Shown: piece by piece, positions 6,509 through 51,780 of the stretch
Numbering within the stretch: position 1 is the stretch's first letter
How the letters are laid out: each line of letters opens with the position of its first letter
Origin: Lachnoclostridium sp. MSJ-17
GTDB taxonomy: Bacteria > Bacillota > Clostridia > Oscillospirales > Acutalibacteraceae
DNA: 55,967 nucleotides
Direction: 5' to 3'
NCBI RefSeq assembly: GCF_018918205.1
Contig: NZ_JAHLQB010000032.1
Location: 1-55,967 of the forward strand
Made by a program: the position numbers and the translations under genes
The notes under the pieces: model-generated
What the model was told of the DNA's origin: nothing
What the model saw: the letters and a program-made list of their open reading frames with translations, nothing else
Databases searched by the model: none

Positions 6509-6541
6509 TTTTTTAAATTGCATATTTTTATGCAATTTTTT
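6509..6541 (+). promoter_or_regulatory. AT-rich palindromic regulatory element, copy A (before the tail-fibre island)
   Basis: Seen: a 33-bp sequence, T6 then the arm AAATTGCAT (6515-6523), loop ATTTTT, the arm ATGCAATTT (6530-6538) and further T's. It is identical, base for base, to the minus-strand sequence at 51748-51780 before the terminase gene. The palindrome ends 63 bp before the fibre ATG, against 55 bp at the other locus. It could be an operator or an activator site; no consensus -35/-10 pair is visible around it, so an alternative sigma factor or an activator is possible. A weak hairpin plus T-tract reading (terminator) is the alternative. Confidence 0.75.
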
Positions 6542-6601
6542 CCGTTTTAGTCCTGTGAGTGAGGAAGCCCCATCCTCAAATAAATTTTCAGGAGGAATAA
6601 A

Positions 6602-8908
6602 ATGAACGATTATATCTCGGAAATCACCCTTGATCTCAACTGTGAACGCAGCTGCCGGACTATCATGCTGACGCAGTTTGACAAGGGCAAGAAAATCCAC
6701 CTCACCGTAAAGGCGAACGGCGAGCCCTACTCCGTCAGCGGCTGCTCTGTTGTTTTGAAGGGCGTTAATTCCGACGGAAGCAGAGTCGCCGTCGACTGCA
6801 ATATTGAACAGGACGGCACCGCGACCGCGGTTACCGACGACATAACCTTCGCGGTAAAGGGCTTTGCCGCCGCGAGATTTGTGATTTCCGACAGCCAAAG
6901 AACATACAATACACAGAGATTTCTGATTTACGTCGACGACGCTCTCGACACCGACGTGACCTCAGACCCCGCGTATTCTATCCTCAACAGGCTTATCCGC
7001 GAGGTGCAGCTGATCGACGAGCACGGCGGGATAATCGTCGACGACGAGCTCAGCAGCACAAGCGCGCACCCTGTTCAGAACAGAATCGTAAACGCCGCGC
7101 TGAATACAAAGGCCCCCTTGTCGACCGCCTACACCTTTGACAACACGACCACAGCTGTTCCGTTCAATGTCAATAATCCAAAGATCATATATCTGAACGC
7201 CGTTGTTGACGGAGAAAACGGTATTGTTATTACTTCCGCACATAATTCCGGGTTCCAGTTTTTCTTCGGACGAAACGGAACTACAAAAATACGGTTGAGA
7301 AACGGTGCTGATACTTATACCGATTGGCAGCCTGCGGCAGAAAAAGCCGCCAACAAAAGCAACGCGATCACCTCGTCAAACAAGACGAGCTCCACGCTTT
7401 TCCCCACAATCAAGGCGGTCGTCGACTACCTCGCCGAAAAATACGAGGCACTGTCAAACAAGCTGACCTCAGCATACGGCATTGACGGAGATTCCACCGA
7501 CGCTCAGTACCCCACGGCGAAGGCGGTCTATGAATTCGGCGGAGAGATCGTCGACATTGTTAACGAGGATATCGCGGAAACGAACGATGCTGTCGCCGAC
7601 CTCAAGACCTACCTCGGCTACACCTCGGGCGATATCCTCGGTCTGCAGGCTGATTTTGAGAACAAGGTATTCACCCGTCTGGGCGCGGCTGTCGGCAAAA
7701 ACGCAGGCAGCGACTTCGACGTGTTCCCGATGTACGGAGGGCGCAGGCGCGTTGTCGTCGACTCGGACGGCGTTATCGATGACAGCATTGCTCCGGCAAG
7801 CGTCACTGAAACAGACTATGACCTCGACGTTATGGTATATCAGCCTAAATTCTACTACAAGGTAGTTCCGCTCAAGCTCGAGAAGCAGTCAGGCGGTACG
7901 GGATATCATATCCGCAAGGCGAATTACTACATCACCTCGACTCCGCACGCGGGGTTCAAGGTTCACCCTCTGTTCATCGACGCAAACGGCAATGAGGTCG
8001 ATTATGTTCTGCTCTCGGCGTATGAAGCGTCGTATCTGCATGCCGAAACCGGAAATTATCATTATTTCAGCGACGGAACAGATACAAACACGAATATAGA
8101 CTGGGCACATGACGTGCTCAAATCCATGCCCGGAGTAAAACCGATCTCGGGACAGCGCAAGGCGATGACTAAGGCTAACATGGAAGCGCTCGCGCAGCGC
8201 AAATCGTCGAACTGGCACCTTGATACTATCAAGTCTGTATCTGCAAATCAGCTGCTCATGATAATTGAAATGGGTCAGTTCAATACGCAGGCGGCTATGG
8301 GCAGCGGCGTTACCGACACTCCGAATAACGGCGCCTACAACTGCTCTTCTCTCACCGGCTCGACCACTTCCCTCGGTAACGCAACAGGCATGGCAGCAGA
8401 AACAACCTATGAATCAGCGGGAAACGAAACAGTTAACACCACCAACGGCAAATTATCTGTTTCTTACCGGGGACTTGAAAACCCATGGGGCAACATCTGG
8501 AAGCATGTAAACGGAATCAACCTCTGGGGCAACGGCGAAATGGGCGGAGGTCAGGCTTACATAGCCGATAACTTCAGCTTTGACGAAGAAGCGCACAGCG
8601 GAAATTATCATCCCGCAGGCTTCACCATTGCAAACGCAAGCGGCTGGATATCCGCGTTCGCTTACGGAAATGAGGATTTCGACTGGCTGTTTATGCCTTC
8701 GGAAACAACAGGCAACAGCTCGCTTCCTGTCGGCGACCGCTATTACGGTACAGAAGATATGAATGGTTACTATATAATCCGGCACGGCGGCTATTGGAAC
8801 AGCGGCAATGCAGCGGGCGGTTTTCTTTTGAATTGTCTCGGTCCGAGCGGCTCAAAAGCCAATTCGATCGGCGGCCGCCTGCTGTATGTTCCGACCGCGG
8901 CGGTATAA
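6602..8908 (+). CDS. Phage tail fibre / baseplate upper protein with C-type-lectin-like C-terminus
   Basis: Seen: 768 residues. The first about 120 resemble the BppU N-terminal domain (RTIMLTQFDKGKKIHLTVKA, YSVSGCSVVLKG). A middle region has fibre-type repeats (TLFPTIKAVVDYLAEKY, AQYPTAKAVYEF). The last about 290 residues look like a C-type-lectin/FGE-like fold: LENPWGNIWKHVNGINLW, DWLFMPSE and a final GGYWNSGNAAGGFLLNC...GGRLLYVP. That ending resembles the variable proteins of diversity-generating retroelements, but no reverse transcriptase is in the window. Known: such proteins bind host surfaces at the tail tip. AGGAGG lies 7 bases before the ATG. The same regulatory palindrome precedes this gene and the head block far away. 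Confidence 0.85.
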   Translation: MNDYISEITLDLNCERSCRTIMLTQFDKGKKIHLTVKANGEPYSVSGCSVVLKGVNSDGSRVAVDCNIEQDGTATAVTDDITFAVKGFAAARFVISDSQRTYNTQRFLIYVDDALDTDVTSDPAYSILNRLIREVQLIDEHGGIIVDDELSSTSAHPVQNRIVNAALNTKAPLSTAYTFDNTTTAVPFNVNNPKIIYLNAVVDGENGIVITSAHNSGFQFFFGRNGTTKIRLRNGADTYTDWQPAAEKAANKSNAITSSNKTSSTLFPTIKAVVDYLAEKYEALSNKLTSAYGIDGDSTDAQYPTAKAVYEFGGEIVDIVNEDIAETNDAVADLKTYLGYTSGDILGLQADFENKVFTRLGAAVGKNAGSDFDVFPMYGGRRRVVVDSDGVIDDSIAPASVTETDYDLDVMVYQPKFYYKVVPLKLEKQSGGTGYHIRKANYYITSTPHAGFKVHPLFIDANGNEVDYVLLSAYEASYLHAETGNYHYFSDGTDTNTNIDWAHDVLKSMPGVKPISGQRKAMTKANMEALAQRKSSNWHLDTIKSVSANQLLMIIEMGQFNTQAAMGSGVTDTPNNGAYNCSSLTGSTTSLGNATGMAAETTYESAGNETVNTTNGKLSVSYRGLENPWGNIWKHVNGINLWGNGEMGGGQAYIADNFSFDEEAHSGNYHPAGFTIANASGWISAFAYGNEDFDWLFMPSETTGNSSLPVGDRYYGTEDMNGYYIIRHGGYWNSGNAAGGFLLNCLGPSGSKANSIGGRLLYVPTAAV

Positions 8909-8924
8909 AGGAAAGGAGACGCAT

Positions 8925-9152
8925 ATGACAGATTACGGTATTGTAAGAAGCACAGTCAAGCCTGACGAAAAGATTGTCGACGAGCATTCGGTCTGGGTAA
9001 ACACGGAAATCACTCAGACTTCTGACGGTTGGAAATATCGCATGGTTCAGTACGGCAAGGACGAGTATATCAAACTCATGGACGAGGCGAACCAGAAGGC
9101 TCAGGCTGACCTTGAGTACCTCGCCATGATGACGGAGGTGGAGCTTGAGTGA
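8925..9152 (+). CDS. Small phage tail-tip-associated protein (XkdW position), unknown function
   Basis: Seen: 75 residues, start MTDYGIVRSTVKPDEKIVD, hydrophilic, with an acidic helical C-terminal half (IKLMDEANQKAQADLEYLAMM). There is no signal peptide or membrane segment. AAAGGAG precedes the ATG by 7 bases. It lies 16 bp after the fibre gene and its stop overlaps the XkdX start. In PBSX-like elements a small protein commonly occupies this place between the fibre and XkdX; a role in fibre attachment or folding is inferred from position only. Confidence 0.75.
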   Translation: MTDYGIVRSTVKPDEKIVDEHSVWVNTEITQTSDGWKYRMVQYGKDEYIKLMDEANQKAQADLEYLAMMTEVELE

Positions 9153-9295
9153 GTAAGCATTTCAAAAAGGTAAAAATGTATTTTGACAGCGGCTTGTGGA
9201 GCATCGAGAGAGTGCGAAACGCCGTAGTCAAGGGCTGGATAACAGCTCAGGAATACAAAACAATCACAGGCGAAGAATACAATACAGCAGCATAA
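9149..9295 (+). CDS. xkdX: XkdX-family phage protein
   Basis: Seen: 48 residues beginning at GTG 9149 (overlapping the previous stop as GTGA) behind GGAGGTGGAG. The sequence SKHFKKVKMYFDSGLWS, then VRNAVVKGWITAQEYKTITGEEY, is the typical XkdX pattern of about 45-50 residues. Known: XkdX is a conserved small protein at the end of the tail operon of PBSX and many Firmicutes prophages; its function is not established. Here it ends the island. No holin, endolysin or other lysis gene follows; the next gene is dapL on the other strand. Confidence 0.88.
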   Translation: MSKHFKKVKMYFDSGLWSIERVRNAVVKGWITAQEYKTITGEEYNTAA

Positions 9296-9327
9296 AAAAA
9301 ACAGCTCCGGGGATATCCTCGGAGCTG
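9293..9327 (-). terminator. Rho-independent terminator of dapL
   Basis: Read on the minus strand, CAGCTCCG pairs with CGGAGCTG around a GGATATCC core and is followed by a run of eight T's. It lies 6 bp past the dapL stop and overlaps the XkdX stop. On the plus strand the hairpin has no T-run, so it is weaker for XkdX. Confidence 0.8.
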
Positions 9328-9332
9328 ATTCC

Positions 9333-10511: not shown

Positions 10512-10568
10512 AGTGGTTTCATTCCTTTATATCAGATTTTTTCCTAATATCTGATAAACGACAAGGTC

Positions 10569-14624: not shown

Positions 14625-14669
14625 ACTATCAATCCTTACTTTATAGAATATTTTTGAATATATCTGAGA

Positions 14670-15752: not shown

Positions 15753-15788
15753 AGTAACAATCCTTTCAAATAGTGGTTTATTCAAATC

Positions 15789-15804
15789 GGGCGGAATACC
15801 GCCC
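15789..15804 (-). promoter_or_regulatory. GC hairpin in the ANTAR-carA spacer
   Basis: A perfect 6-bp stem GGGCGG/CCGCCC with a TATT loop lies in the 73-bp gap before carA. There is no T-run, so it is not a standard terminator. It may affect mRNA stability or be a protein-binding site. Weak evidence. Confidence 0.3.
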
Positions 15805-15825
15805 CGGAATTGACGTTTGTGTTTA

Positions 15826-16389: not shown

Positions 16390-16527
16390 ACTATCACCAC
16401 CGCTATTTCATTCTTCAACATATTATTTTACCTGATTTCCCGGACAGTTTATTTACATAAAGGAATTAAACTGAGATTTCTTGATTTTTTTATTTTTACA
16501 AACTGAATAATCATTTATTTTGGCGGA

Positions 16528-16557: not shown

Positions 16558-16613
16558 ATTACGGTGCAGACTCATAATCCGACAAATTTCTGCACGGAAA
16601 GGATCAGCTGACG

Positions 16614-40950: not shown

Positions 40951-40985
40951 TTCCTTCGCAAAGGGTATACAATAAAAAACAAATC

Positions 40986-41206: not shown

Positions 41207-41246
41207 CTACAAATAAAAACCGAACTTGTTTTGAGTATTTTCTCGC

Positions 41247-41723
41247 TTACGCATTATATTCAAAAATCGTTTCAAAGGTCACCGGGGTAAACGCCTTGAT
41301 TCCCTTCTCGAAATCCGCCTTCTGAACGGCGGTGAGCGGATCGTTTACGGTAATTGTGATCTTGCCGTTGCGCTGCACGATCGACACCGTGTAATCCGTC
41401 ACTCCGAGCGCCTCGATAAGCTGATTCAGATCCGCGCTTCCGTGACCTCCCGACGCCCGCGTTTCCCTGAGCATAAGCAGCTCGCGCCGCCTTGAAAGGG
41501 TCAGGTCAGATCTCTCCTTGCCGATGAATTTCTCGCGCTCGGTTATGCCGTAGGTCTCGGCTGTAGGAACGAACGCCTCGCGTATCATGGTATCAAGCTC
41601 CGCGTATATCCTGTCAAGCTCAACGGCATACGCCTTGAGCTCGCAGTCCACGGCTCCGCCCTGTCCGATCGAGTACAAGCCCGTTTGAAGAAGCTTCGAG
41701 CTCATCGACTCATAAGATGTCAT
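41247..41723 (-). CDS. Phage baseplate protein, DUF2313/YmfQ (XkdU-like)
   Basis: Seen: 158 residues with YAVELDRIYAELDTMIREAFVPTAETYGITEREKF and a C-terminal beta domain (DYTVSIVQRNGKITITVNDPL). This is the pattern of the DUF2313/XkdU family. Known: it lies just after the baseplate J gene in PBSX- and Mu-like phages and belongs to the baseplate/fibre junction. Its start overlaps the J gene stop by 4 nt. It is the last gene of the minus-strand block; the fibre that should follow is not here but at 6602. Confidence 0.85.
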   Translation of the reverse strand: MTSYESMSSKLLQTGLYSIGQGGAVDCELKAYAVELDRIYAELDTMIREAFVPTAETYGITEREKFIGKERSDLTLSRRRELLMLRETRASGGHGSADLNQLIEALGVTDYTVSIVQRNGKITITVNDPLTAVQKADFEKGIKAFTPVTFETIFEYNA

Positions 41724-42751
41724 TCGCTCACCCCTAATATCACGTTGCCCGGCATAAAGCAGGTCGCGGCTGTCGCGCCGATATCGGTCATCGACGAGTC
41801 GTAAACGTAGTTTTCAATGCACCCCGTGTCGAGCATATATTTTCCGAGCGCCGAAAGATAAAACCTCTCGCCCATCGGAATAGAGTAAACATAATCCGCG
41901 AAGGCGTTTTCGATCGCCACACGCACGTCCTGCGCGCTGTAGCCCGGCTTTCGCGTGACGACAACATCGAGGTCGACGCTCCTCAGCACCGCGGGGTACG
42001 CAGTCACCATTGCTCCGACGCAGTCGTTCTGAGAGAGCAGAGCGTTGACCCTGCTGACGACCGCGTTGGAAACCTGCTCGCGCAGTCCGCAGACGTACAC
42101 GCCCGCAGTGCCGTAGCCGTCGATTCGCTCGATAACGCCCGCCTTTTCGACGCCCTCGACCGTGAGCACGAGATTCTTGTAATAATCCGCGTTGACTCCG
42201 TTCGGAACGGCGGTGTAGGTCTTTAGAACGCGGTCGCGGAGATTGTTGTCGCTCTCCTCGTCGCTGCCGCCCGTAAAGCGCGAGGCGTTGTACACTGAGC
42301 TGACCGCCGCCGGCACCGTTACAGGCACGGTGGCGGAGTTTGCGTTGATGTTTCCGCGGTAGCCCGCAAGCTCAGCCTCGGCGTTTATGGCGGCGGAATA
42401 CGTCGCCTGCGGAATCTCGCCGTCCTCTGTGGTTACGAAGCGGACGGGGATCTCGTCGTCCGTCGCGACAACCGTACCTCTCGGTATGGGCACGGCGTAG
42501 TCGAGCGTTTCGGCAAGGCGGAAGGTTATCTGACCCGTCGCCTTGACCGCAGCCTTGCGCGTAAGTCCGCGCTGTGAGGCGAGGTTGTCGAGGTTGTCGC
42601 CCGTCGCTGTGGCGGCGAACATCTGCCGCTTCGTCCAGTCGAGCGTCGTCTGCATATTGTATATTTCGCCAGCGAGCACCTTTAGGCGAATGGCGATGTC
42701 GCTCGCCTCGTCCACCTCAAAGCCGCTCTCCTGCTCGTAGCGCGCCTTCAT
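41720..42751 (-). CDS. Phage baseplate J-like protein
   Basis: Seen: 343 residues with a typical baseplate J pattern: LKVLAGEIYNMQTTLDWTKRQMFAATATGDNLDNLASQRGLTRK, then FTGGSDEESDNNLRDRVLKTY and LDLDVVVTRKPGYSAQDVRVAIENAF-like segments. Known: it forms the wedge of contractile-tail baseplates and triggers contraction. The start is uncertain: in-frame codons upstream read YDAIYSR, as homologues often begin, but no usual start codon or ribosome-binding site is seen there. Confidence 0.9.
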   Translation of the reverse strand: MKARYEQESGFEVDEASDIAIRLKVLAGEIYNMQTTLDWTKRQMFAATATGDNLDNLASQRGLTRKAAVKATGQITFRLAETLDYAVPIPRGTVVATDDEIPVRFVTTEDGEIPQATYSAAINAEAELAGYRGNINANSATVPVTVPAAVSSVYNASRFTGGSDEESDNNLRDRVLKTYTAVPNGVNADYYKNLVLTVEGVEKAGVIERIDGYGTAGVYVCGLREQVSNAVVSRVNALLSQNDCVGAMVTAYPAVLRSVDLDVVVTRKPGYSAQDVRVAIENAFADYVYSIPMGERFYLSALGKYMLDTGCIENYVYDSSMTDIGATAATCFMPGNVILGVSE

Positions 42752-42773
42752 TCTGCTGTAAATCGCGTCATAG

Positions 42774-43106
42774 TTATCCGTAGTGACGCACCTCCCTTAT
42801 TCTTGTTTCACCGTTGACATTTATCTCGGCGCGCACTCCGTTATCTGTGACGGCAATGGCTTGTGCCGAGACGTTTTCACAGGGCGCGAGCGCTTCGCAG
42901 AACGCCCTGTCGTACTGCTGCAAAATCAATTCTCCGCCGATATCCTCACAGTCCGCGCCGAGCTGTCTGTCGTAGATAAAACTACCTCTTTTCGCGCTTA
43001 TGCGAATCAGCGCGCGCTGAAACTCCGAGTCCTTTTCCGACAAAAGCTCCGCTCTGCCCGCGCTGTCGAGGACGATATCGCCGTACTCCGTTTTTACGTC
43101 TCTCAT
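42774..43106 (-). CDS. Phage baseplate protein, gp25/W-like (DUF2634 position)
   Basis: Seen: 110 residues, MRDVKTEYGDIVLDSAGRAELLS then FQRALIRISAKRGSFIYDRQLGADCED and a C-terminal VNGETRIREVRHYG. This resembles gp25/XkdS-type small baseplate wedge proteins. Known: the gp25 fold resembles lysozyme and nucleates sheath assembly in contractile tails. It overlaps the spike gene by 4 nt. Notably no sheath gene is present in the block. Confidence 0.8.
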   Translation of the reverse strand: MRDVKTEYGDIVLDSAGRAELLSEKDSEFQRALIRISAKRGSFIYDRQLGADCEDIGGELILQQYDRAFCEALAPCENVSAQAIAVTDNGVRAEINVNGETRIREVRHYG

Positions 43107-43432
43107 TCGAACACCCTGCCGTTTATCAGCACAGTGCCGTCGTTTTTGAGCACTATCGAAGCGCCGCCGCTCGAGCGGAGCATGATCTCGCCCTCGCTGA
43201 GATTATCCGCTGAGGAGATCACGCCTACGCTGACCTCTCCGTCGTCGAGAGGAAGCACGACTGCCCTCTCTCCCGACGGAGGAATGCTGAACACTCCGTA
43301 TGGCGCGCAGCAGGGCAGGTTTTTGTGCTCTCCCGACGACCTCACGGAGCTGCCGTCATTGCCCTGGACGTCCCCTTTTACGGCGTTAGGCGGCGTTATT
43401 GAATTTTTTGTTATATAGCTCATCAGCCACAT
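43103..43432 (-). CDS. Phage baseplate spike/hub protein (gpV or DUF2577-like)
   Basis: Seen: 109 residues. The sequence NLPCCAPYGVFSIPPSGERAVVLPLDDGEVSVGVIS has the OB-fold pattern of gpV/gp45 spikes. It ends with repeats like IMLRSSGGASIVLKNDGTVLINGRVFE that normally form a triple beta-helix. It is shorter than usual spikes (about 180-210). Known: the trimeric spike sits under the tube and pierces the target envelope. A GGAGA lies 7 bases before the ATG at 43432. Confidence 0.78.
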   Translation of the reverse strand: MWLMSYITKNSITPPNAVKGDVQGNDGSSVRSSGEHKNLPCCAPYGVFSIPPSGERAVVLPLDDGEVSVGVISSADNLSEGEIMLRSSGGASIVLKNDGTVLINGRVFE

Positions 43433-43433
43433 A

Positions 43434-44348
43434 TTAAATCTCCTTTCTCAGGCTCACGGCGGTATACTCGCCCTTGTCGCTCATGCTGTAGCTGAGTCCC
43501 GCCGCGATAAAACCCTTTTCGCCGTCGACAACGGCGGTTTTTCCGAGAATATCCGTCAGATCGCCCGCGCATTTTATCTTTACAAGCCTTGCCTCGCGGT
43601 TGCCCTTCTCAATAATGCGGCTCGCGGTGTCAAGGCTGATGTTGTCGGCGACGGCGTTGACGTAGCGCACGCGGGTAACAGCCGCCGCGTCAGGATTCTC
43701 ATTTATAACGCGCGAATCGTAGCCGCCGGTTTTAGTCAGCCGCACCCTCGTTTCGGAAATGAGCTTGTACCTGCGGAAGCTGTCGGTTTTTTCGAGAATA
43801 CTTATCCCGCCTGCGCCGAAAATCACCTCGCCCTGCGCCCGGAAGCCCTTTAATATCGCCCTTGTGTCCGCGATACGCGGCTTCGCTCCGTAGCGCTTGG
43901 CGCAGTAGCTTTCGAGCACCTGCCAATGCGACATGCCCTTGTCGATTTTCAGGCTGTCGTAAAGCGGGTGACGCTCCTCCTCGCAGGAGGTTATCCCGAA
44001 GGGCTTTAGGTGGCGGTCGAGCATCATCCGGTTCGAGGGATTTGTATATACAAGCGGCTCAGCCTCGTTGTCGAGCAAAAACGCGGCAAGGCTGCGCGCG
44101 CTGAAGCGCAGAAGGCATTTTCCGCTGTCCTTTACGGTGATGATCTCGTCGATCTGCCCGTAAAAAACACGGCTGCCGACCGAATACGCCGAGAGCATGT
44201 CCGCCTTTTCGCGGAGCCTGTCCGAATACGGAACCGTCACGCTCAGGCTGTCGGCAGGTACGTCAAGCTCGCTGTCCAGACGCGCGGACAGCACGCTGTT
44301 GAGCGGTAATTCGCTCTTGTCCGTAAGCGTCAGTATGTATTTCAGCAA
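43434..44348 (-). CDS. Phage late control D / XkdQ-like baseplate hub protein
   Basis: Seen: 304 residues, LPLNSVLSARLDSELDVPADSLSVTVPYSDRL and YGQIDEIITVKDSGKCLLRFSARSLAAFLLDNEAEPLVYTNPS, the pattern of XkdQ/late-control-D-like hub proteins. The C-terminus has GDLTDILGKTAVVDGEKGFIAAGLSYSMS. Known: it forms the baseplate hub between tube and spike. It overlaps the LysM gene by 7 nt. Length is similar to XkdQ (about 320). Confidence 0.82.
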   Translation of the reverse strand: MLKYILTLTDKSELPLNSVLSARLDSELDVPADSLSVTVPYSDRLREKADMLSAYSVGSRVFYGQIDEIITVKDSGKCLLRFSARSLAAFLLDNEAEPLVYTNPSNRMMLDRHLKPFGITSCEEERHPLYDSLKIDKGMSHWQVLESYCAKRYGAKPRIADTRAILKGFRAQGEVIFGAGGISILEKTDSFRRYKLISETRVRLTKTGGYDSRVINENPDAAAVTRVRYVNAVADNISLDTASRIIEKGNREARLVKIKCAGDLTDILGKTAVVDGEKGFIAAGLSYSMSDKGEYTAVSLRKEI

Positions 44349-44854
44349 AGCCTGACCACCTCGCCCTCAGCGAGAATATCGGGACGCTTCACCTGCGGAT
44401 TCAGGCGCACGAGAGTGTCTATGTCCACGCCGTATTTGTAGGATATATCCCAGAGGTTTTCATTCGCGGCGGCGATCACCCCGCGCCGTCTGTCGCCGCG
44501 TTCCTCCATCAGCTCCCTGAACGCAAAGCCGTAGGTCAGCACGTCGTTACGCGGCTTGCCGATCAGCCTGATACTCTCGAATTCCGCGTAAAACGAGGGA
44601 AAATTCGGGATCGTCAGCACTCCTGCGCCGCCCTCGCGGAACAGCCCGAGAAGCTCCTTGAACTGCTCAACACAATCCGCGCCGAACAGCTCGCCCTCGC
44701 CCGAGATCTTCATATTGCGCCTGCCCGTGTTCTGCACAAGGCTCTTGCCGAACGGCGCGAGAGTCTCGTTGAGCTGCTTTGCGTTCTCAAATACGATTTC
44801 CCGCGGGTTGTGGCTCCAGCTGTAGCCCTTGAACTTCATCGGTACCTGCTTCAT
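44342..44854 (-). CDS. Phage baseplate protein with C-terminal LysM domain (XkdP / gp53-like)
   Basis: Seen: 170 residues. The N-terminal 115 (KFKGYSWSHNPREIVFENAKQLN, GEGELFGADCVEQFKELLGLF) resemble XkdP-type proteins. The last 50 (ENLWDISYKYGVDIDTLVRLNPQVKRPDILAEGEVVRL) are a LysM domain. Known: in PBSX this gene follows the tape measure gene; LysM may hold the baseplate to peptidoglycan or to the hub. Here it is preceded by a 36-codon gene, not a tape measure. The start overlaps that gene's stop (ATGA). Confidence 0.85.
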   Translation of the reverse strand: MKQVPMKFKGYSWSHNPREIVFENAKQLNETLAPFGKSLVQNTGRRNMKISGEGELFGADCVEQFKELLGLFREGGAGVLTIPNFPSFYAEFESIRLIGKPRNDVLTYGFAFRELMEERGDRRRGVIAAANENLWDISYKYGVDIDTLVRLNPQVKRPDILAEGEVVRLC

Positions 44855-44961
44855 TCGCCGTTCACCTCTTGTTCTTCGTCGAGCCTGCGGCTGTAGCGGC
44901 GGCTCTCCTGTTCGAGCAGCTCGCTGAGCTCGGCAAGGCTGAAATTATCTGTCTCAGACAT
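44851..44961 (-). CDS. 36-residue phage protein in the place of the tape-measure region
   Basis: Seen: MSETDNFSLAELSELLEQES, then RRYSRRLDEEQEVNGE, a short charged helix. The start overlaps the end of the 120-residue gene by 8 nt and its stop overlaps the LysM gene as ATGA, so the gene is kept in a tight translational chain, the main evidence that it is real. GGAG lies about 10 bases before the ATG. In PBSX this interval holds a tape-measure chaperone and a large tape measure of over 1000 residues; this may be a remnant or an adaptor. Confidence 0.6.
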   Translation of the reverse strand: MSETDNFSLAELSELLEQESRRYSRRLDEEQEVNGE

Positions 44962-45316
44962 TTTCAACGCTCCTTTCTCCCGCCGAAATAAGTACGGCGT
45001 ACTCCACCGCAGAGTCGGGCAGGATCTCGCACTTCACACTTTCCACGCAGCAGCCGGTGTATGAAACGCGCTTGTTTCCGTAAGCCAAGGTCACCGCCGA
45101 AGGATTCAGCCCGATAGACGAGTACGGCTGAACGCGCATGCGCAGCTTAACATAGTATGATGAACTTGAAAGCTGCGCTGCAGGCACGTCGGTCAGGTAT
45201 TCCTCTATCTTTTCAACGGTATTATTCTGACCGCATTCGACCGAGATAACGCCGCCGACTCTCGCCCCGTCCGCTGTGACGGTCACGTCGCAGCCCTTGA
45301 GAAATGACGCAATCAT
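44954..45316 (-). CDS. Small phage structural protein, possible tail-tube-like or connector protein
   Basis: Seen: 120 residues, beta-rich: CDVTVTADGARVGGVISVECGQNNTVEKIEEYLTDVP, then YYVKLRMRVQPYSSIGLNPSAVTLAYGNKRVSYTGCCVES. GGAGG lies before the ATG, which overlaps the previous stop by 4 nt. Its position (after the tail terminator, before LysM) is where sheath, tube and tape measure genes should be. The fold may match a tail-tube protein, but no certain family signature is visible. If it is the tube, the tail would have no length ruler. Confidence 0.6.
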   Translation of the reverse strand: MIASFLKGCDVTVTADGARVGGVISVECGQNNTVEKIEEYLTDVPAAQLSSSSYYVKLRMRVQPYSSIGLNPSAVTLAYGNKRVSYTGCCVESVKCEILPDSAVEYAVLISAGERSVENV

Positions 45317-45750
45317 GCCGAACCCTCCTCACACAGACAGAATTCAAGGCGGAAGCCGATCCTGCGGAATATCGTGTTGAGCTCCGTGTCGAACTCGATA
45401 GACGACACCGAAGGCTCTGAGACAATGCCCGCGGTATCCGCGGTTTTAAGTCCCGAGAGAATCTCTCCCGCGATCTCCGAAAGACCGCTGCCGTTGCCGC
45501 CGTTGGGTGAATAGAGCCTGATCTCGATAGAAGCCGAGTACATCTCGCCCTTGAGCGCGGAGGTAGCGTCGCCGCCGATAAAGCCGTTCTTGCGCTCCGC
45601 GCTGTTGACCCCGACCGCAGCGAGAAAGCCGCTGACGGGAGTTTCTATCGGCTCCGAGGAATACTCCCTGACAAAGCGCACTGAGCTCAGCGCGGGGATC
45701 GCCTTGAGTCCGAGCACGATACCGTCCGCCTGTTCGTTAATCTGAGTCAT
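45313..45750 (-). CDS. Phage tail terminator / head-tail joining protein (XkdJ-like position)
   Basis: Seen: 145 residues from the ATG at 45750, which has GGGAGG 6 bases upstream; a longer frame to 45798 starts inside the previous gene. The sequence has GLKAIPALSSVRFVREYSSEPIETP and MYSASIEIRLYSPNGGNGSGLSEIAGEIL, an alpha/beta pattern like tail-completion proteins. Known: such proteins cap the tail at the head side. It overlaps the previous gene by 14 nt. Family assignment is by pattern and position. Confidence 0.65.
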   Translation of the reverse strand: MTQINEQADGIVLGLKAIPALSSVRFVREYSSEPIETPVSGFLAAVGVNSAERKNGFIGGDATSALKGEMYSASIEIRLYSPNGGNGSGLSEIAGEILSGLKTADTAGIVSEPSVSSIEFDTELNTIFRRIGFRLEFCLCEEGSA

Positions 45751-46093
45751 AATCATCCTCCCGTCTTGCCCCGAAGGGCACCATAATCGCCCAGACATAG
45801 ACCGGTCTGTCCTGAACGTAATAGGTTTCGCACCTTTTTACAATATATTTGCCGCCGACCGATTCTATTACAGACGCGTTTGCGCGCAGAGGTACGTCGG
45901 GCTGTCCGATATACAGATACCTGTCCTGTATGAGCGAGCCGAGGCTTCGCTGTTCGCCGCCGATATAGATTTTATTTTTGTAACGCAGCGGCTCAACGAT
46001 AGCGCGGGTTTTCACGCTTGAGCTGCCCTGAGTGACCTCGACGTCGCCGCCGAATTTCGCGATGGAATTTGACACCGCGCCCATAAGACTCAT
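45737..46093 (-). CDS. Small phage head-tail protein (XkdI-like position)
   Basis: Seen: 118 residues, MSLMGAVSNSIAKFGGDVEV then beta-rich segments (KTRAIVEPLRYKNKIYIGGEQR, YLYIGQPDVPLRANAS, GGKYIVKRCETYYVQDRPVYVWAIM). The ATG overlaps the previous stop (TAATG). The small size, beta content and position between the connector and the tail terminator fit a head-closure or stopper protein. Not otherwise recognised. Confidence 0.65.
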   Translation of the reverse strand: MSLMGAVSNSIAKFGGDVEVTQGSSSVKTRAIVEPLRYKNKIYIGGEQRSLGSLIQDRYLYIGQPDVPLRANASVIESVGGKYIVKRCETYYVQDRPVYVWAIMVPFGARREDDYDSD

Positions 46094-46449
46094 TAAATCA
46101 CTATCCTTCCGAAAATAAAGCCCTTTGTGTCTATCAGCCCCGAATACTCCGCGCACAGGCTGCGCCACAGCTTTTCCGCTCCGCCTTCGCCGGCGGATGA
46201 CGTGAGCTTCACGTCACCCGCGGTAAAGGAAGTGAGGTTGTCGGCATTGCAGATTTCAAAGAGCCTGTACGCGTAAGCGGCGGCGAGCAGCTCAAGCGCT
46301 CTCGTCTGGGCTTCGTCGGGAGACCCGACCCTTGTATGCGCCCCGATATACTCGAGCGCGTCCTCAACAAGACCGCGCCATCGGCACATCTCGTCGGGTC
46401 TTACTCCCGCGAGCATCATAAAACGCTCGTCTACATTTGCAATGTTCAC
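46093..46449 (-). CDS. Phage head-tail connector protein (XkdH-like position)
   Basis: Seen: 118 residues, helical: ERFMMLAGVRPDEMCRWRGLVEDALEYIGAH, ALELLAAAYAYRLFEICNAD. This matches the short helical bundle of gp6/HK97 adaptor proteins that sit under the portal. The start is a GTG at 46449 behind GAGGTGA. It follows the major capsid gene by 12 bp. Confidence 0.7.
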   Translation of the reverse strand: MNIANVDERFMMLAGVRPDEMCRWRGLVEDALEYIGAHTRVGSPDEAQTRALELLAAAYAYRLFEICNADNLTSFTAGDVKLTSSAGEGGAEKLWRSLCAEYSGLIDTKGFIFGRIVI

Positions 46450-46461
46450 ACTCTCACCTCA

Positions 46462-47469
46462 TCAGACGGTAAGCATCTTGCTTGCCTCGGTGAAGATCTT
46501 CGCGAAGCCTGCGGTGCAGGTGATCGCGGCGCGCTCGAGCTGACGGTCGATGAGCTTGTCGTAGTCGGTCACAACTCCGCCCGCCTGAACCATCTCAAGC
46601 GCGCAGTTCCTGTCGAGACCGATAATTCTGCCCGAAGTCATCTCGGGTACGTGCAGAAGGGTCGCGCCCATGGGAGTGATCATCTTGCCGGTGCCCTGGA
46701 AGTCAAGACCCGCGCGGGAATCCTGCATCTGGGTGAGGGCGAGGATCTTCTGCATCTCTGTAGTAGGCGCGAGAATTGTGTTGAGCTCGTAGGGAGTCAT
46801 ATTCGCCCAGAGCTTGACAAGGTCGCCGTAGGTCAGCGTACCCGCGGTTGCGGGAGTGATGACCGAAGCGGCGTTTGAGTTGCCGTCTCCGTTGATAAGC
46901 ACGTCGACCGCGTCATGAAGCTGCTCGCGGGCGATGTACGCGCCGATCTGGTTGAGGGTGACGGTAAAGAGGTCAAGTCTCTGGAAGCGCAGAGCCTCGT
47001 ATGAAGCGACGAGCATTCTGCCTCTCTTGTGGAGCTTGACGAGATTCTCGCGGGTCCTGACGGTAGTCTGGGGGATCGCCGCGCCCTCGCCGACGATCTT
47101 GAGGCTCTTTTCGTCCTCCGTGGGAGCGGAAACGATGCTTCTGTAGTCCATGCCCTCGATATCGGTGACGGTAGCGACAAGGTTCGGGAGAATATCAGCT
47201 CTCTCCATGCCCTGACGAACCGCGCGGCTCACATACTCCGGGAAAAGCGCCGCGGAGTTTGAGGTCTGGAAGAACTTCTCAACGCAGTCGCTGCCTCTGC
47301 CGCTGACTCTGATGTCGTAGCGCTTGAGCTGACGTGAGAACGCGTCAAGACCCTCGAGAGAGGTGCCTGCGTAGTTCTCGCTGGGGTCGAGCTTTTCGAG
47401 AGCGGCGGTCAGACCGCCCTTGTTCTGGTACATACCCTTCTCAATGTTAATATTTTCAAAAGTTGCCAT
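46462..47469 (-). CDS. Phage major capsid protein, HK97-like
   Basis: Seen: 335 residues. The N-terminal arm (ENINIEKGMYQNKGGLTAALEKLDP) is followed by FPEYVSRAVRQGMERADILPNLVATVT and FTVTLNQIGAYIAREQLHDAVDVLINGDGN. The C-terminal half carries LAPTTEMQKILALTQMQDSRAGLDFQGTGKMITPMGATLLHV. This pattern is typical of XkdG-like capsid proteins of Firmicutes phages. Known: it forms the icosahedral shell. AAGGAGG lies before the ATG. The decoration protein gene directly upstream and the protease before it complete the shell module. Confidence 0.85.
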   Translation of the reverse strand: MATFENINIEKGMYQNKGGLTAALEKLDPSENYAGTSLEGLDAFSRQLKRYDIRVSGRGSDCVEKFFQTSNSAALFPEYVSRAVRQGMERADILPNLVATVTDIEGMDYRSIVSAPTEDEKSLKIVGEGAAIPQTTVRTRENLVKLHKRGRMLVASYEALRFQRLDLFTVTLNQIGAYIAREQLHDAVDVLINGDGNSNAASVITPATAGTLTYGDLVKLWANMTPYELNTILAPTTEMQKILALTQMQDSRAGLDFQGTGKMITPMGATLLHVPEMTSGRIIGLDRNCALEMVQAGGVVTDYDKLIDRQLERAAITCTAGFAKIFTEASKMLTV

Positions 47470-47487
47470 AAAAATACCTCCTTAAGA

Positions 47488-47823
47488 TCAAAGAATTATT
47501 CCGACTCTGGTTGCGTCCGCGTCGACGACGAGATACTCTCTGCCGTTGGCGTTAGCGGCGACCTTGCCGGAGCTGTTGACGGCGAGATTCTGGTAGCCGA
47601 CGGTGATTTTTGCCGCCGCGGGAAGTTCGGCGTAGCCTGCGACCTGAACTGCGGCGTAGCCGTTTCTCAGACCGACGCAGACGCCGATGAACGGATCGCC
47701 GTTGCCGCTGACGGTAACGGTGCCGTCGGCGCTCATCTTGACGGGAACGCCCGTTGCAGTGAGAGCTGACGCCGCGATAAAGGTGAGCACGTTTTCGTTG
47801 AAGCCCTTAAAGTTTACATTCAT
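47488..47823 (-). CDS. Capsid decoration protein, DUF2190-like
   Basis: Seen: 111 residues, beta-rich with many Gly/Ala/Val: LTATGVPVKMSADGTVTVSGNGDPFIGVCVGLRNGYAAVQVAGYAELPA and REYLVVDADATRVGIIL. This is like DUF2190 and head-fibre proteins that trim the capsid surface. It lies 18 bp before the capsid gene and 20 bp after the protease gene, the usual order. Known: these proteins stabilise expanded shells. Confidence 0.7.
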   Translation of the reverse strand: MNVNFKGFNENVLTFIAASALTATGVPVKMSADGTVTVSGNGDPFIGVCVGLRNGYAAVQVAGYAELPAAAKITVGYQNLAVNSSGKVAANANGREYLVVDADATRVGIIL

Positions 47824-47843
47824 TTCAAATACCTCCGTTTAAG

Positions 47844-48824
47844 TTAAATGTGATACTGTCCGTTGAGGTCGGACTTGGTTGACTTTTTCTCGGTGTAGAG
47901 CTGCGGTGTGATGGGAATGAGCTCGGCGCGCTGCTTTTCAAAGGCGGTTTTGAACTCCTTGAGCTGCGCTACCGTCATACCCTTGGTCACGCTCTCCATC
48001 GTTTCGCGGGAAATGCCCGGCTGTACCGCCGCCGAAAGGCGCAGCACCTCCGAGGTAAGACTGTCGCGGTAATACACGCCGTCCTTGGCGCTCTGCTTGA
48101 GGCTGTCGATGTACTCGAGCAGCTTTTTGCAGTCGCGGTCGCTGAAGGTCGCGCTCTGACCGCGCGAGAGCTTTTTCATAATTCCTTCCATATCATTTTC
48201 CTTTCCGTAAGCTGTCTTTGTCACGCCCGCGTTCTTCTGGGCGGGAACCGCGACAAAGCTCCATTCGTATGCGTCGTATGGCTCGCTCAGCTCGCCGCAG
48301 CAGAGCTTGCCGCCGTAGGTCTCGCCCTTTCTGTGGGGACAGAGACTTATATCCTCGCCGCAGACGCTGCACAGTATCTTTCCTACCGCGCAGCCGACGC
48401 TGACCTCCTTGACGATGCCGCTGTCGAGAGCGGCGATAAGCTCGGAGTTGCCCTGAGTGCGCGGCAGATAGGCGCGCGCCGTGAGGCGGAAATACTCGTC
48501 GCCTGTCGCGGTGGTGCGGGTCGCGACGTTTTCGACCCTGCACGAGATTATCCTCGCGGTCTGGTTCTTTGCGCTCGGGTCGTGGTCAAAAATGCCCGTC
48601 TTGCCGACAAAGAGCTTTTCGAGAGCGAACAGCGATTCCACGGTGAAGCGTTCGCCGTCGCGGTCGACGTCGTTGTCGCAGAGCACGACGGTAAAGACGT
48701 AGACCTCGTTTTCCGAGAGCGTCCTGCGGGTGTAGGTGTTTATCAGCTCCAGCTCCTCAGCCGTCGCCCTGCACGCGTCCGGCGAGACGCCGCCGGCTGC
48801 CGCCTTGGTGATTTTATTGTCCAT
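47844..48824 (-). CDS. Prohead protease with fused scaffold-like tail and cysteine-rich insert
   Basis: Seen: 326 residues from the ATG at 48824 (GGGAGGA 5 bases upstream). The N-terminal 200 have VYVFTVVLCDNDVDRDGERFT, FDHDPSAKNQTARI and VKEVSVGCAVGK, the pattern of HK97-type serine proteases (His and Ser). A cysteine-rich insert follows (CSVCGEDISLCPHRKG, GGKLCCGE), which may bind zinc. The last about 100 residues are helical (SLKQSAKDGVYYRDSLTSEVLRL), as in a scaffold domain. Known: it cuts capsid arms during maturation. It overlaps the portal gene by 11 nt. Confidence 0.8.
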   Translation of the reverse strand: MDNKITKAAAGGVSPDACRATAEELELINTYTRRTLSENEVYVFTVVLCDNDVDRDGERFTVESLFALEKLFVGKTGIFDHDPSAKNQTARIISCRVENVATRTTATGDEYFRLTARAYLPRTQGNSELIAALDSGIVKEVSVGCAVGKILCSVCGEDISLCPHRKGETYGGKLCCGELSEPYDAYEWSFVAVPAQKNAGVTKTAYGKENDMEGIMKKLSRGQSATFSDRDCKKLLEYIDSLKQSAKDGVYYRDSLTSEVLRLSAAVQPGISRETMESVTKGMTVAQLKEFKTAFEKQRAELIPITPQLYTEKKSTKSDLNGQYHI

Positions 48825-49962
48825 CTTCTTCCTCCCAACCGATTTCATTTTCGAGCTTCTGCGCCTGCGCGTTGTTGAGTCTTGCCTGCGAAAGCTCGAC
48901 CGCGTCCTGAAGGTTGATGTCGTCCCACTCGACCCTGAACGCGCTGTTGCAGCCGCTCAGCTGAAGATGCGTGCGCACGATGCGCCTTATCACAGGCTCG
49001 AGGGTGTCGCGGTAAAACTCCAGCTCGCTGGTGAGGATATCCGCCTGCTGACTGCTCATGCGCTCAGTGCTCGACCACGAGAGACCGAGCAGAAACGGCG
49101 GTATGCCGAGCTTTGAGGTTATCTGCTCAAGCAGCGCCCTGACGGGAACCTCGCACTCGGGCATGATATTCTCAGAGCCGATGACCTTTACGCTGACGTC
49201 GCCGACGGACACAAAGTCGCACACGCTGTCGCTGCGCATAGCCTTTCGCCATTCGTCGGCGATCTGCTGAGCGTTTTCCTCGCTGAAAACTCCGTTTTCG
49301 GGCTTGTAGGTCACGGCAAAGCGGACGTCGCCGATCCTCTCCCAGTTGTTTTTAACCGACTCGAATATTCTCAGCAATATGCCGCTGACAAACGGCAGAC
49401 CTCTGAGCAGCGAGGTTCCTCTCGCGGTGCCCGCGCGCTGGTTGAGCAGCGATACCACCACCAGATTCTGATACCTGACGGGCACGTTACCTCCGGCGTC
49501 GCGCCTGCAGACGAGAAGATTGAGCGGCGAGCCGTCGGCGCGTATTTCAACGTCGTCGAGTCTCGCGTTGTAAACAGCAGCGATGCCCTGTCCGTCGGGC
49601 GAGGGTATCATCTCGCCCACAGCCTCGCCGTAGGTCAGCATGGTGTCGAGGTAGGTGTAAATAAAGCCGTGCAGCCCCTGGTCGGTGCCGTTGGACTTTA
49701 CCTCCTTGACAAAATGCTGCGCCAGGCTCTCGCATTCCGCGTTGTCGGAGCGGATATGAAAGCCGCCGATAAGCCTGATGATCTTGCCGAGCGCGGCGTC
49801 GATCATCGGCACGGACTCCCTGAGCGCCGAATAGAGCTGTCTTTCCGCGCTCGTCTGAACCGCGTACCGCGAAAGATTCAGCAGAGAGCTGTCACAGGGA
49901 CTTTTCGGAACCGTCTGCGCGACCCGCTTCACCTCCCTGCCCTGCTTTTTTCTACCAAACAT
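48814..49962 (-). CDS. Phage portal protein
   Basis: Seen: 382 residues from the ATG at 49962 (AGGAGG 6 bases upstream). Motifs are MIDAALGKIIRLIGGFHIRSD, YGEAVGEMIPSPDGQGIAAVYNARL, PCEVPVRALLEQITSKLGIPPFLLGLSWSSTERMSSQQADIL-like text, and a helical C-terminus. Known: the dodecameric portal is the DNA gate of the capsid and the base for the connector. It is shorter than many portals (about 450-500) but the core is complete. It follows the terminase gene by 10 bp. Confidence 0.85.
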   Translation of the reverse strand: MFGRKKQGREVKRVAQTVPKSPCDSSLLNLSRYAVQTSAERQLYSALRESVPMIDAALGKIIRLIGGFHIRSDNAECESLAQHFVKEVKSNGTDQGLHGFIYTYLDTMLTYGEAVGEMIPSPDGQGIAAVYNARLDDVEIRADGSPLNLLVCRRDAGGNVPVRYQNLVVVSLLNQRAGTARGTSLLRGLPFVSGILLRIFESVKNNWERIGDVRFAVTYKPENGVFSEENAQQIADEWRKAMRSDSVCDFVSVGDVSVKVIGSENIMPECEVPVRALLEQITSKLGIPPFLLGLSWSSTERMSSQQADILTSELEFYRDTLEPVIRRIVRTHLQLSGCNSAFRVEWDDINLQDAVELSQARLNNAQAQKLENEIGWEEEDGQ

Positions 49963-49972
49963 TGTTTTCCTC

Positions 49973-51217
49973 CTATCTTGCGGCGGCAATCACGGGTACG
50001 AAGCTGCCGCCGTCCATTAAGGTTGTCACAAAGTACCGTATGTCGTCCATCGCGTGGTCGTTCTGCTTGACGGGAGAATCAGCGTGACGTTCGCTGTCCC
50101 AGCGGTAGAGCGAAAACTCTCGCCGCGACGCCTTACAATTACCGCAAATGCGGATCCTGCCGCTCTTGAGCGCCTGCGACACACGCCTGATACCGTTGAC
50201 AACATTGTTCTGCGCCGGCACGACCTGAAAAACTCCGTGCCTGCGTATGACCTCGATGAAGCTCGCCGCCGACGGGTCGACCGCGACAGCGCGGATATGC
50301 CTGCCGCCGACAAGCTCGCAGAGCGCTGAATAGTGCTCCTCGTCGGTTTTCTGAAAGCCCTCGGCGCGTGAGTCAAAGTAATACTCGTCGATCCTGTACC
50401 AAACATCTCCGCGCTTGCCCCATAGCCCGAAGGAAGCAGGATTGACCGTGCCGTAGTCGCAGGAAACGGCGTATTCGCCGAATTCGCCCTGCGGCACCTC
50501 AAAGTAATACTTTTCGTCCGCCATGAAGGGATAGACCGCGCCGTGAACGGCGACCCATTTCCCTTTGACGAAGCGCTCGTAGAAAACGCCGGAGTACAAA
50601 CTCTCGTACCTGCGCTTTACCTCATCGGACAGCGACGGGTTATCGTCCATCGTAAAGTGGAGATAGAGAGCGTTTTTTGCCTGCGCTCCCTTTATCCACT
50701 CGAGGTGGAACCAGTGCTCGGGGTGCTCGGGATTGCAGTTGAACCAGAACCGCGAGCCGTCGACGGAGCACCTAGCGAGCGCCTGCTCGACAAACGAGCG
50801 CGGCATCAGCGCGACCTCGTCGAACAGCACGCCCGAGAGCGTCATGCCCTGTATAAGCGCGGCTGACGCCTCGTCCTTTCCGCCGAAGAGATAGAACCGG
50901 TTCGTCCTGCCGCGGTAGGTCACGAGCAGGAGGTTCTGACTGAGCTTTTCCTCGCACGAAAACCCGGCTGACTGCAGCAGCGACGTTATCGGCGTGATCA
51001 TGTTGCGCCTGAGCGAGCGGATAGTCTTTCCGCAGATCGCGAAATCCCCGTTGCCGAAAAAATAAAAGCTCCACAGCACAAACGAGAGCGACATGCAGAA
51101 GGTCTTGCCGCTGCGCACCGAGCCGTCGCAGATTATCGCGTCGCGCAGATAATCGCGCGAATCGCGGTGCCACCAGCTCAGCACCCTGCGCTGCTTTTTT
51201 GAGAACGAGCTAATCAT
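49973..51217 (-). CDS. Terminase large subunit (PBSX family)
   Basis: Seen: about 414 residues. The ATPase has Walker A IICDGSVRSGKTF and Walker B GVLFDEVALM; RFWFNCNPEHPEHWFH is a family hallmark. The nuclease domain has acidic residues in VSCDYGTVNPASF, AVDPSAASF and HAMDDIRYFV. All key residues look intact. Known: it packages DNA into the prohead through the portal. The ATG at 51217, with GGGAAG 8 bases upstream, overlaps the small subunit stop by 8 nt; a GTG at 51226 is the alternative. Confidence 0.95.
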   Translation of the reverse strand: MISSFSKKQRRVLSWWHRDSRDYLRDAIICDGSVRSGKTFCMSLSFVLWSFYFFGNGDFAICGKTIRSLRRNMITPITSLLQSAGFSCEEKLSQNLLLVTYRGRTNRFYLFGGKDEASAALIQGMTLSGVLFDEVALMPRSFVEQALARCSVDGSRFWFNCNPEHPEHWFHLEWIKGAQAKNALYLHFTMDDNPSLSDEVKRRYESLYSGVFYERFVKGKWVAVHGAVYPFMADEKYYFEVPQGEFGEYAVSCDYGTVNPASFGLWGKRGDVWYRIDEYYFDSRAEGFQKTDEEHYSALCELVGGRHIRAVAVDPSAASFIEVIRRHGVFQVVPAQNNVVNGIRRVSQALKSGRIRICGNCKASRREFSLYRWDSERHADSPVKQNDHAMDDIRYFVTTLMDGGSFVPVIAAAR

Positions 51218-51695
51218 CGTACTCACTTCCCGCGGCTACGCTGCCGATCGCGTCGTAAAGACTGCCGGCGCCTTCGCGCTCCATACTCAGCGTCTCAAGC
51301 TTCTCGAGCGCCTTGACGCGGTCGAAGAACTTGATCTCCATCGCACCGTCCTTCGGGCGTTTTATCTCGGAAACGAGGAACAGATCCATGTTTTCGAGAG
51401 TCTCGCGGCTCGGGTTTTCCTCAAACATCAGCGACGCCGCGTCAGACGTACTGCCGAAGGCGAGCCTACGGTAGCCGATGACCGCCATCGCCCGGAGAAG
51501 TCTTGCCCGGTAATCCGACAGCCGCTCAAGCTCCGCGCAGATTTTTTCGTCGCACAGCAGCCTTTCGCCGTCAGCACCGGGATTTCTGAACCCCGCGCGC
51601 CGTGCGGAGACCGCCGCGTCTCCCGTCTGCATGAAGAGCAGACAGAATTCCCTCTCCCTTGCGGTCAGCTTGTTTTTAATAACCGTCACCTCCAT
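51210..51695 (-). CDS. Terminase small subunit
   Basis: Seen: 161 residues, KLTAREREFCLLFMQTGDAAVSARRAGFRNPGADGERLL (helix-turn-helix) and a helical C-terminal half (VKALEKLETLSME). This matches XtmA/Terminase_2-type small subunits. Known: it recognises pac or cos DNA, or in transfer agents works with little specificity. The start is odd: a perfect GGAGGTGA lies inside the frame after the ATG at 51695, so real initiation may be at a less usual codon slightly downstream. First gene of the 17-gene block, behind the shared palindrome. Confidence 0.85.
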   Translation of the reverse strand: MEVTVIKNKLTAREREFCLLFMQTGDAAVSARRAGFRNPGADGERLLCDEKICAELERLSDYRARLLRAMAVIGYRRLAFGSTSDAASLMFEENPSRETLENMDLFLVSEIKRPKDGAMEIKFFDRVKALEKLETLSMEREGAGSLYDAIGSVAAGSEYDD

Positions 51696-51747
51696 AAGAT
51701 TTTCGAAAGGCGTGAATGACTGCCTTCCACCTACCCCGCAAAAATGA

Positions 51748-51780
51748 AAAAAATTGCATAAAAATATGCAATTTAAAAAA
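51748..51780 (-). promoter_or_regulatory. AT-rich palindromic regulatory element, copy B (before the terminase-capsid block)
   Basis: Reverse complement of this stretch is identical over 33 bases to 6509-6541: arms AAATTGCAT and ATGCAATTT (51751-51759 and 51766-51774) with a 6-base AT loop and homopolymer flanks. It starts about 55 bp before the terminase small-subunit start. Very AT-rich tracts of about 30 bp continue upstream at both loci. After it both leaders have a short GC hairpin, TGAGGA/TCCTCA at 6558-6576 and a weaker GTGGA/TTCAC here. Confidence 0.75.

Follow-up and report, generated by a model that had tools for sequence, protein, structure and literature searches.

A palindromic box ahead of dispersed phage-type loci in the Ruminococcus bromii lineage and a likely regulon for a domesticated gene-transfer-agent-like particle

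Results and discussion

Two phage-type operons with a common upstream element

The window analyzed here is a stretch of 55,967 nucleotides from Lachnoclostridium sp. MSJ-17 (contig NZ_JAHLQB010000032.1) that carries a tail fibre operon on the plus strand and a terminase-to-baseplate operon on the minus strand (Table 1). The same 33 bases, TTTTTTAAATTGCATATTTTTATGCAATTTTTT, lie ahead of both operons, at 6509-6541 on the plus strand and at 51780-51748 on the minus strand. Direct reading of the sequence thus bears out an earlier note on this DNA, which had described identical bases in the same orientation before the two first genes. The core of the 33-mer is an 18-bp inverted repeat. Sequence comparisons described below make it likely that at least five dispersed phage-type loci with this palindromic box form a single regulon for a domesticated particle resembling a gene transfer agent (GTA).

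The distance of 55-63 bp to the start codons given previously holds for the fibre gene, whose ATG at 6602 lies 60 bp downstream of the 33-mer, and does not hold for the listed ATG of the small terminase gene terS at 51695, which lies 52 bp downstream. The true terS start is uncertain because a GGAGGTG motif overlaps the listed ATG. When the window was searched with a 27-base core, allowing up to 3 mismatches, only these two places were found and none of 100 shuffled sequences matched, in agreement with the claim that the palindrome occurs nowhere else in the window. A looser form of the palindrome gave one additional window match with 3 mismatches, in line with the chance expectation. Across the loci described below, what is shared is TTGCAT-N6-ATGCAA with a promoter-like element after it, and not the whole 33-mer.

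The box in the MSJ-17 genome and across the genus

A genome-wide search, as proposed in the earlier note, was done on the MSJ-17 assembly (2.04 Mb, 126 contigs, 82% complete, 3.3% contaminated). It returned five exact TTGCATA-N4-TATGCAA sites, each ahead of a phage-type gene (5/5). The two loci originally recognized were therefore an undercount, three further copies being present outside the window. The five target genes encode TerS of the terminase-to-baseplate operon, the tail fibre, a holin on contig C16 (Phage_holin_4_1, PF05105, E 6e-33), a GH25 lysozyme-type lysin on C48 (PF01183, E 2.7e-28) and a replication initiator of 234 aa on C11 that belongs to a DnaD-like phage replication-initiation family (phrog_2514, E 9.6e-26). 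The holin and GH25 genes are isolated and surrounded by ordinary genes, and the initiator gene has the trp operon on one side and a GGDEF-type gene on the other (neighbour names assigned by eye). Four more genome matches with 3 mismatches to the palindrome were viewed with about 300 bp of context.

For comparison, 196 relatives were found and 80 were kept, with 60 genomes forming the genus set (handles G, C and L below denote genomes, contigs and loci). The relatives include the cultured strains R. bromii 5AMG, R. bromii YE282 and Ruminococcus sp. FMBCY1 and many metagenome-assembled genomes from rumen and gut. R. bromii acts as a keystone species of starch degradation in the gut. The box with seven-base arms was present at 147 sites in 41 of the 60 genus genomes, with no match of a reversed control, and the looser TTGCAT-N6-ATGCAA at 206 sites in 55 genomes, with 10 matches of the reversed control in 8 genomes; the control string differs in dinucleotide make-up and serves as a guide only.

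Target genes were read at 60 of the 142 seven-base-arm sites outside the MSJ-17 genome, covering 17 relatives in listing order with ten listed sites left out. Fifty-three of the 60 sites lie ahead of phage-type genes, which encode TerS (15), an initiator (15), a fibre or fibre-like protein (13), a lysis-type protein (7) and, in single cases, a VapE-type helicase (L227), a MuF-ribonuclease protein (L185) and a small protein of a phage family without known function (L198, phrog_4105). Profile searches back 49 target labels, 12 of which belong to proteins that are themselves members of the query sets. Several of the small lysis-type proteins fall in PHROGs of unknown function and were called holin-like by eye. 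The sites read in the 17 relatives included no genome with two terS sites. The possibility, raised in the earlier note, that the element is a common dispersed repeat before unrelated genes disagrees with these counts and with the five sites in MSJ-17.

Two genomes illustrate the pattern. G046 is 99% complete, its capsid protein is 90% identical to that of MSJ-17, and its five seven-arm sites (L207-L211) precede holin, initiator, fibre, GH25 and terS genes. These are the same five kinds of target as in MSJ-17, with an initiator of a different N-terminal family (DUF6291). R. bromii YE282 (G002) has four seven-arm sites (L170-L173) and two looser sites; the targets are terS, an initiator, a fibre-like gene and a gene for a small phage-family protein, 1.1 kb beyond which lies a GH25-like gene.

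Two of the single-case targets deserve description. The protein of 199 aa at L185:1839-2435 (G016, C9) combines a Phage_Mu_F-like stretch with a barnase-type ribonuclease domain (PF00545, 3.9e-13) and is a possible toxin cargo of the particle. The gene at L227:2565-4127 (G036, C15) encodes the VapE-type helicase (PF05272, 4.6e-49).

Regulation through the box

To place the box relative to a promoter we used 75 named terS loci with up to 300 bp of upstream sequence. The seven-arm box was found in 30, TTGCAT-N6-ATGCAA in 47 and a perfect TTGxyz-N6-zyxCAA palindrome in 52, while shuffled upstream regions gave means of 0, 0 and 0.24 with at most 2 matches. At 32 of the 58 sites, an AAGTGAA-like element with five or more of its seven bases matching stood 21-22 nt past the box (shuffles: mean 1.3, maximum 5). 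With TATAAG taken as the -10 element, transcription would start about 31 nt past the box, and the box centre would lie near -40. The consensus contains no recognizable -35 hexamer.

An activator is more likely than a repressor, given the predicted overlap of the box with the -35 region and the lack of a good -35 hexamer. The box could also be the operator of a stress- or SOS-type repressor, with all loci derepressed together, which would leave the reading of the particle unchanged. Overlap with the -35 region fits a repressor equally well, whereas a consensus lacking a -35 hexamer suggests the need for an activator, and we regard repression as possible but the weaker option.

Variation of the box between genomes points to a protein acting in trans. 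Six genomes were picked around divergent terS boxes and searched with a pattern open to other half-sites. In G108 all hits (5/5) read TTGCGTA. Repeated TTGCCYA or TTGCCCT-type palindromes were found in G107, G109 and G110, with one asymmetric hit in each; G111 gave a single asymmetric hit and G112 none with the open half-site pattern. The divergent boxes precede terS (L315, L319), fibre-type genes (L313, L318), an initiator gene (L312), a gene for a small phage-family protein (L320), genes for fibre-like or LRR-type proteins (L321, L323) and one for a protein without family (L317); the target at L316 is ambiguous, and L314 and L322 stop at a contig edge. Since half-sites diverged alike at unlinked sites of one genome, a trans-acting regulator with changing specificity is implied. 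The L317 product (731-2485; G109, C11) has 585 aa, and a helicase-like label for it was dropped since neither Pfam nor PHROGs supported it.

The TTGCAT core half-site suits a dimeric DNA-binding protein better than an RNA hairpin. A leader RNA hairpin, considered since the arms covary, is less likely in view of the A-C or T-T mismatches in the outer arms of some boxes. The initiator is unlikely to be the regulator since unrelated initiator types follow the same box.

Several observations weigh against a single regulon for a GTA-like particle. The strict palindrome is lacking in 23 of the 75 terS upstream regions, and five of the 60 genomes have no looser box, three of which possess a capsid gene (G010, G018, G053). 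Among the 60 target sites, five have no clear class, two (L176, L215) have no phage gene, and the genes at L180 and at L181 and L212 look decayed. Eleven of the 13 fibre-like proteins belong to a family that may be unrelated to the fibre of the window; BppU_N was matched weakly by one member, at a level below the cut-off, and a second member matched a PHROG of unknown function. No replication initiator would be expected in a classical GTA, and at its level of completeness the MSJ-17 assembly may not give the full set of loci. The search for the regulator, which did not find it, counts on the same side. The box has Crp-like geometry, for which reason Crp-type helix-turn-helix proteins (PF13545) were sought; they occur in 57 of the 60 genomes in variable copy number and are absent from G014, G022 and G049. 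This candidate was not accepted because G014 and G022 lack PF13545 yet carry boxes.

Particle genes in the window

The two operons encode packaging, head, tail and baseplate proteins (Table 1). Gene names given in the earlier note were broadly right, except that Pfam did not confirm the XkdX label of the 88-aa protein. For p161 the top structural matches of the predicted model were phage neck and gpU chains. In the large terminase TerL, the ATPase lysine, the Walker B acidic pair and the nuclease aspartates are kept in all 102 aligned sequences, and internal stops are missing from all 101 relatives. Its closest solved structure is PDB 5oe8 (E 1.5e-138), the large terminase of phage D6E; the resemblance is that of one terminase to another and does not indicate the function of the particle.

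Table 1. Upstream elements and phage-type genes of the window. aa, amino acids; ORF, open reading frame; pLDDT, predicted local distance difference test score.
Feature	Position	Strand	Remarks
33-mer before fibre operon	6509..6541	+	palindrome TTGCATATTTTTATGCAA at 6518-6535
-10-like element TGTGAGTGA	6554..6562	+	predicted; 18 nt past palindrome; consensus TATAAGTGA
Tail fibre	6602..8908	+	BppU_N; phrog_5302 tail protein
Small phage protein, 88 aa	8886..9152	+	phrog_18126, unknown function
Mu Gp48-like baseplate protein	41247..41723	-	family match
Baseplate J	41720..42751	-	family match
p110, probable baseplate wedge	42774..43106	-	position only; no significant match
p109	43103..43432	-	weak Mu Gp45 (spike) match below cut-off; phrog_25991
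Baseplate hub	43434..44348	-	phrog_177
LysM tail/baseplate protein	44342..44854	-	LysM
p120, tail-tube fold	44954..45316	-	AlphaFold2, pLDDT 85
p161, tail-terminator fold	45313..45798	-	AlphaFold2, pLDDT 78
p143, probable head-closure protein	45737..46168	-	position only; true start probably Met26 of ORF
p118, probable head-tail connector	46093..46449	-	position only; no family match
Major capsid protein	46462..47469	-	Phage_capsid_4, phrog_3922
p111, virion structural protein	47488..47823	-	phrog_4588
p334, conserved between portal and capsid	47844..48848	-	phrog_16951, unknown function
Portal	48814..49989	-	family match
Large terminase (TerL)	49973..51226	-	ATPase and nuclease motifs conserved
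Small terminase (terS)	51210..51695	-	Terminase_2
33-mer before terS	51748..51780	-	palindrome at 51754-51771

PBSX of Bacillus subtilis has terminase, capsid, LysM, baseplate J and Gp48-type genes in one order, and the same order is found here. The idea of one PBSX-like gene order was thus partly right, with the difference that the loci are scattered and that neither a sheath nor a tape measure was recognized among the proteins of the terminase-to-baseplate block, the largest ORF of which has 417 aa. A PBSX-type particle has its late genes, sheath and tape measure among them, in one contiguous operon, and such an operon was not found here. The tail of the particle is probably short.

The same genes bear on a particle that kills related cells in a PBSX-like or bacteriocin-like manner, for which the regulon would be the same and the packed DNA would not be delivered. 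Fibre genes are diverse between genomes, the L185 box precedes the MuF-ribonuclease gene, and a report on FpGTA, the Faecalibacterium GTA, leaves the same question open (Borodovich et al., PMC12946183). We consider this explanation unlikely, since no sheath was recognized, which makes a contractile killing tail improbable, and since the cluster retains portal, capsid and both terminases, with their catalytic motifs conserved, none of which a tailocin needs. A tailocin is a sheathed contractile tail without a head, whereas the cluster in the window contains head and packaging genes and no recognized sheath.

Conservation, selection and spread of the particle genes

The capsid gene is present in one copy without internal stop in 54 of the 60 genus genomes, two of the matches being partial. 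It is missing in G001, G006, G019, G027, G028 and G057. The last of these is rated 100% complete and also lacks the looser box, while G001, G019, G027 and G028 (75-85% complete) still carry one or two looser boxes. The ratio of nonsynonymous to synonymous substitution rates (dN/dS) against L043 was 0.05-0.20 for the 16 genes; with L090, a more distant relative, it rose as high as 0.60 and dS exceeded 1. Stops in aligned p143 and p161 fall upstream of their likely true starts. By these sequence measures the terminase-to-baseplate cluster is under purifying selection.

These data speak to the suggestion that the loci are decaying prophage fragments that have kept the operator of one regulator, the box being a relic of one phage's late promoter. 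Truncated initiators (L181, L212), a broken fibre-like ORF (L180) and the unrelated initiator types in different genomes are what such fragments could leave behind. A single-copy, unbroken capsid gene, dN/dS values well under 1 against close relatives, preserved TerL motifs and the co-divergence of half-sites between unlinked loci argue the other way, and we judge prophage decay very unlikely. No intact prophage with these genes was seen among the phage records read gene by gene (three of five close phage-collection records and three of 29 IMG/VR loci). The 46.7-kb record L277 (MT835508), deposited as 'Bacteriophage sp.', reads as a bacterial chromosome, with a ribosomal-protein operon recognized by eye, that contains a TerS-to-capsid cluster.

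Relatives of TerL (E <=1e-30; 30-67% identity) were found in 58 of the 295 genomes sampled from the order, representing 43 of 148 genera. Sixteen of 20 clusters from other genera keep the order TerL-portal-p334-capsid or a near-complete version of it (from L332 onward detected by tblastn). Clusters running from terS to the major capsid protein gene (terS-MCP) sit amid housekeeping genes, at times at a common site. In 17 of 63 named loci a gene judged by eye to be of GerA type stands upstream, and in two genera (L329, L330) the clusters share flanking genes that by eye resemble DegV and HflX. No TTGCAT box was seen ahead of terS in the clusters from those other genera. On the evidence of capsid copy number, dN/dS and cluster order, the phage-type packaging and structural genes have been kept intact by selection and passed down with the host lineage.

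A few further loci were noted in this survey. An HflX-like gene is found about 4 kb from the MSJ-17 holin locus (L012:3490-4737), and clusters of two other genera adjoin HflX-like genes. In L337 (G346, C19; another family) terS is preceded at 82 bp by TTGTAC-N6-GTACAA, a palindrome with the geometry of the box. L326 and L327 of g67, a further genus of the order, contain a different chromosomal cluster of TerL-portal-capsid type behind housekeeping genes.

The replication initiator

The coding sequence of the MSJ-17 initiator contains about five 11-bp repeats (L010 8226-8277). Tandem repeats beyond the expectation from protein sequence and codon use were present in five of nine initiator genes (0 of 200 synonymous shuffles); a sixth reached 2 of 200, three showed no excess, and the same test was negative for all eight other genes of the set. 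Clear 11-bp arrays occur in three initiators (L010, L223, L199), the other repeats being purine- or AT-rich. Origins that lie within initiator genes occur in lambda-type phages. The MSJ-17 type of initiator is found in just 19 of the 60 genus genomes; elsewhere different types follow the same box, and the initiator loci lie at differing chromosomal places.

Initiators, the VapE-type helicase (L227) and structural parts under one box, together with the variable positions of the initiator loci, could also reflect a mobile segmented phage or phage satellite, parts of which are packaged and spread as separate pieces. The two window loci contain no replication or integration gene, the initiator being part of the box set, and no integrase or attachment structure was found beside the loci read, with no genome-wide integrase search made. 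As terS-MCP clusters lie amid housekeeping genes and sometimes at a shared site, we find a segmented element the least credible explanation of those considered.

Comparative evidence gives good support to a dispersed particle regulon linked by the box. Joint control of a domesticated particle, as proposed in the earlier note, gains support from the conservation of box and genes in relatives. That the particle works as a gene transfer agent and that the initiator drives run-off replication are inferences. In the mechanism proposed, a dimeric trans-acting regulator, more likely an activator, would switch on all five promoters in some cells. Small heads would be filled with chromosomal DNA by the terminase pair, a very short tail would consist of terminator, tube and baseplate, and holin and lysin would free the particles. 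The initiator protein may act at an origin within the gene that encodes it and amplify the neighbouring chromosome for packaging. More tentatively, and with doubts outweighing confidence, we suggest that the single switch that turns on capsid, fibre and lysis genes would also fire a detached phage origin within the initiator gene, over-replicating its neighbourhood as heads form. If true, the R. bromii lineage couples amplification and packaging through one operator.

Comparison with known systems

Nearest in host and design is FpGTA, which also has a gut Gram-positive host and split particle operons: TerS, TerL, portal, scaffold and capsid are encoded in one operon, and baseplate, fibre, holin and endolysin in a second operon about 125 kb away, with no visible tail (Borodovich et al. 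2026, PMC12946183). FpGTA has two loci and no replication genes are reported for it, whereas here at least five loci share one box and an initiator is included. The same survey describes capsid-packed chromosomal DNA from Ruminococcaceae and GTA-like packaging in Ruminococcus callidus and CAG-115, naming genes only for Faecalibacterium (PMC12946183). No Faecalibacterium name occurred among the matches listed for our searches, which included capsid baits from other families.

RcGTA, activated by GafA, and CcGTA, controlled by GafY/GafZ/IHF, combine a main operon with fibre, spike and lysis loci elsewhere, all under one activator (PMC9638019, PMC11150451). The joint control of a main operon and remote loci is alike; GafA-type proteins and IHF or CtrA act there, and the gene sets and the 18-bp box found here differ. 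GTAs tend toward several loci, and production of BaGTA in Bartonella is linked to the run-off origin of a defective prophage (PMC11841831, PMC2697382). There too a detached phage-derived origin is kept alongside a conserved particle cluster, with the difference that amplification was measured in Bartonella, while here an initiator gene with repeats is known from its sequence. A shared box would supply the joint control of origin and particle that the 2009 BaGTA paper left open (PMC2697382).

Multi-locus GTAs, the Bartonella run-off origin and the two-locus Faecalibacterium GTA are already published. What appears new, within the literature searched, is a box common to loci across the genus, a detached phage initiator among them. 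Among the open papers searched, none joining 'Ruminococcus bromii' and 'gene transfer agent' was found. The loci provide concrete candidate genes for chromosomal DNA packaging in a lineage related to Faecalibacterium, and they are present in the cultured strains R. bromii 5AMG and YE282 and Ruminococcus sp. FMBCY1. The 18-base box is a handle for locating all parts and the regulator, and the initiator makes shared control of run-off replication and particle production directly testable.

Between the two operons of the window, a single ORF of 1351 aa on the minus strand (10569-14624) combines carbamoyl-phosphate synthase large-chain domains with a diaminopimelate epimerase domain, which may reflect either a gene fusion or an assembly effect.

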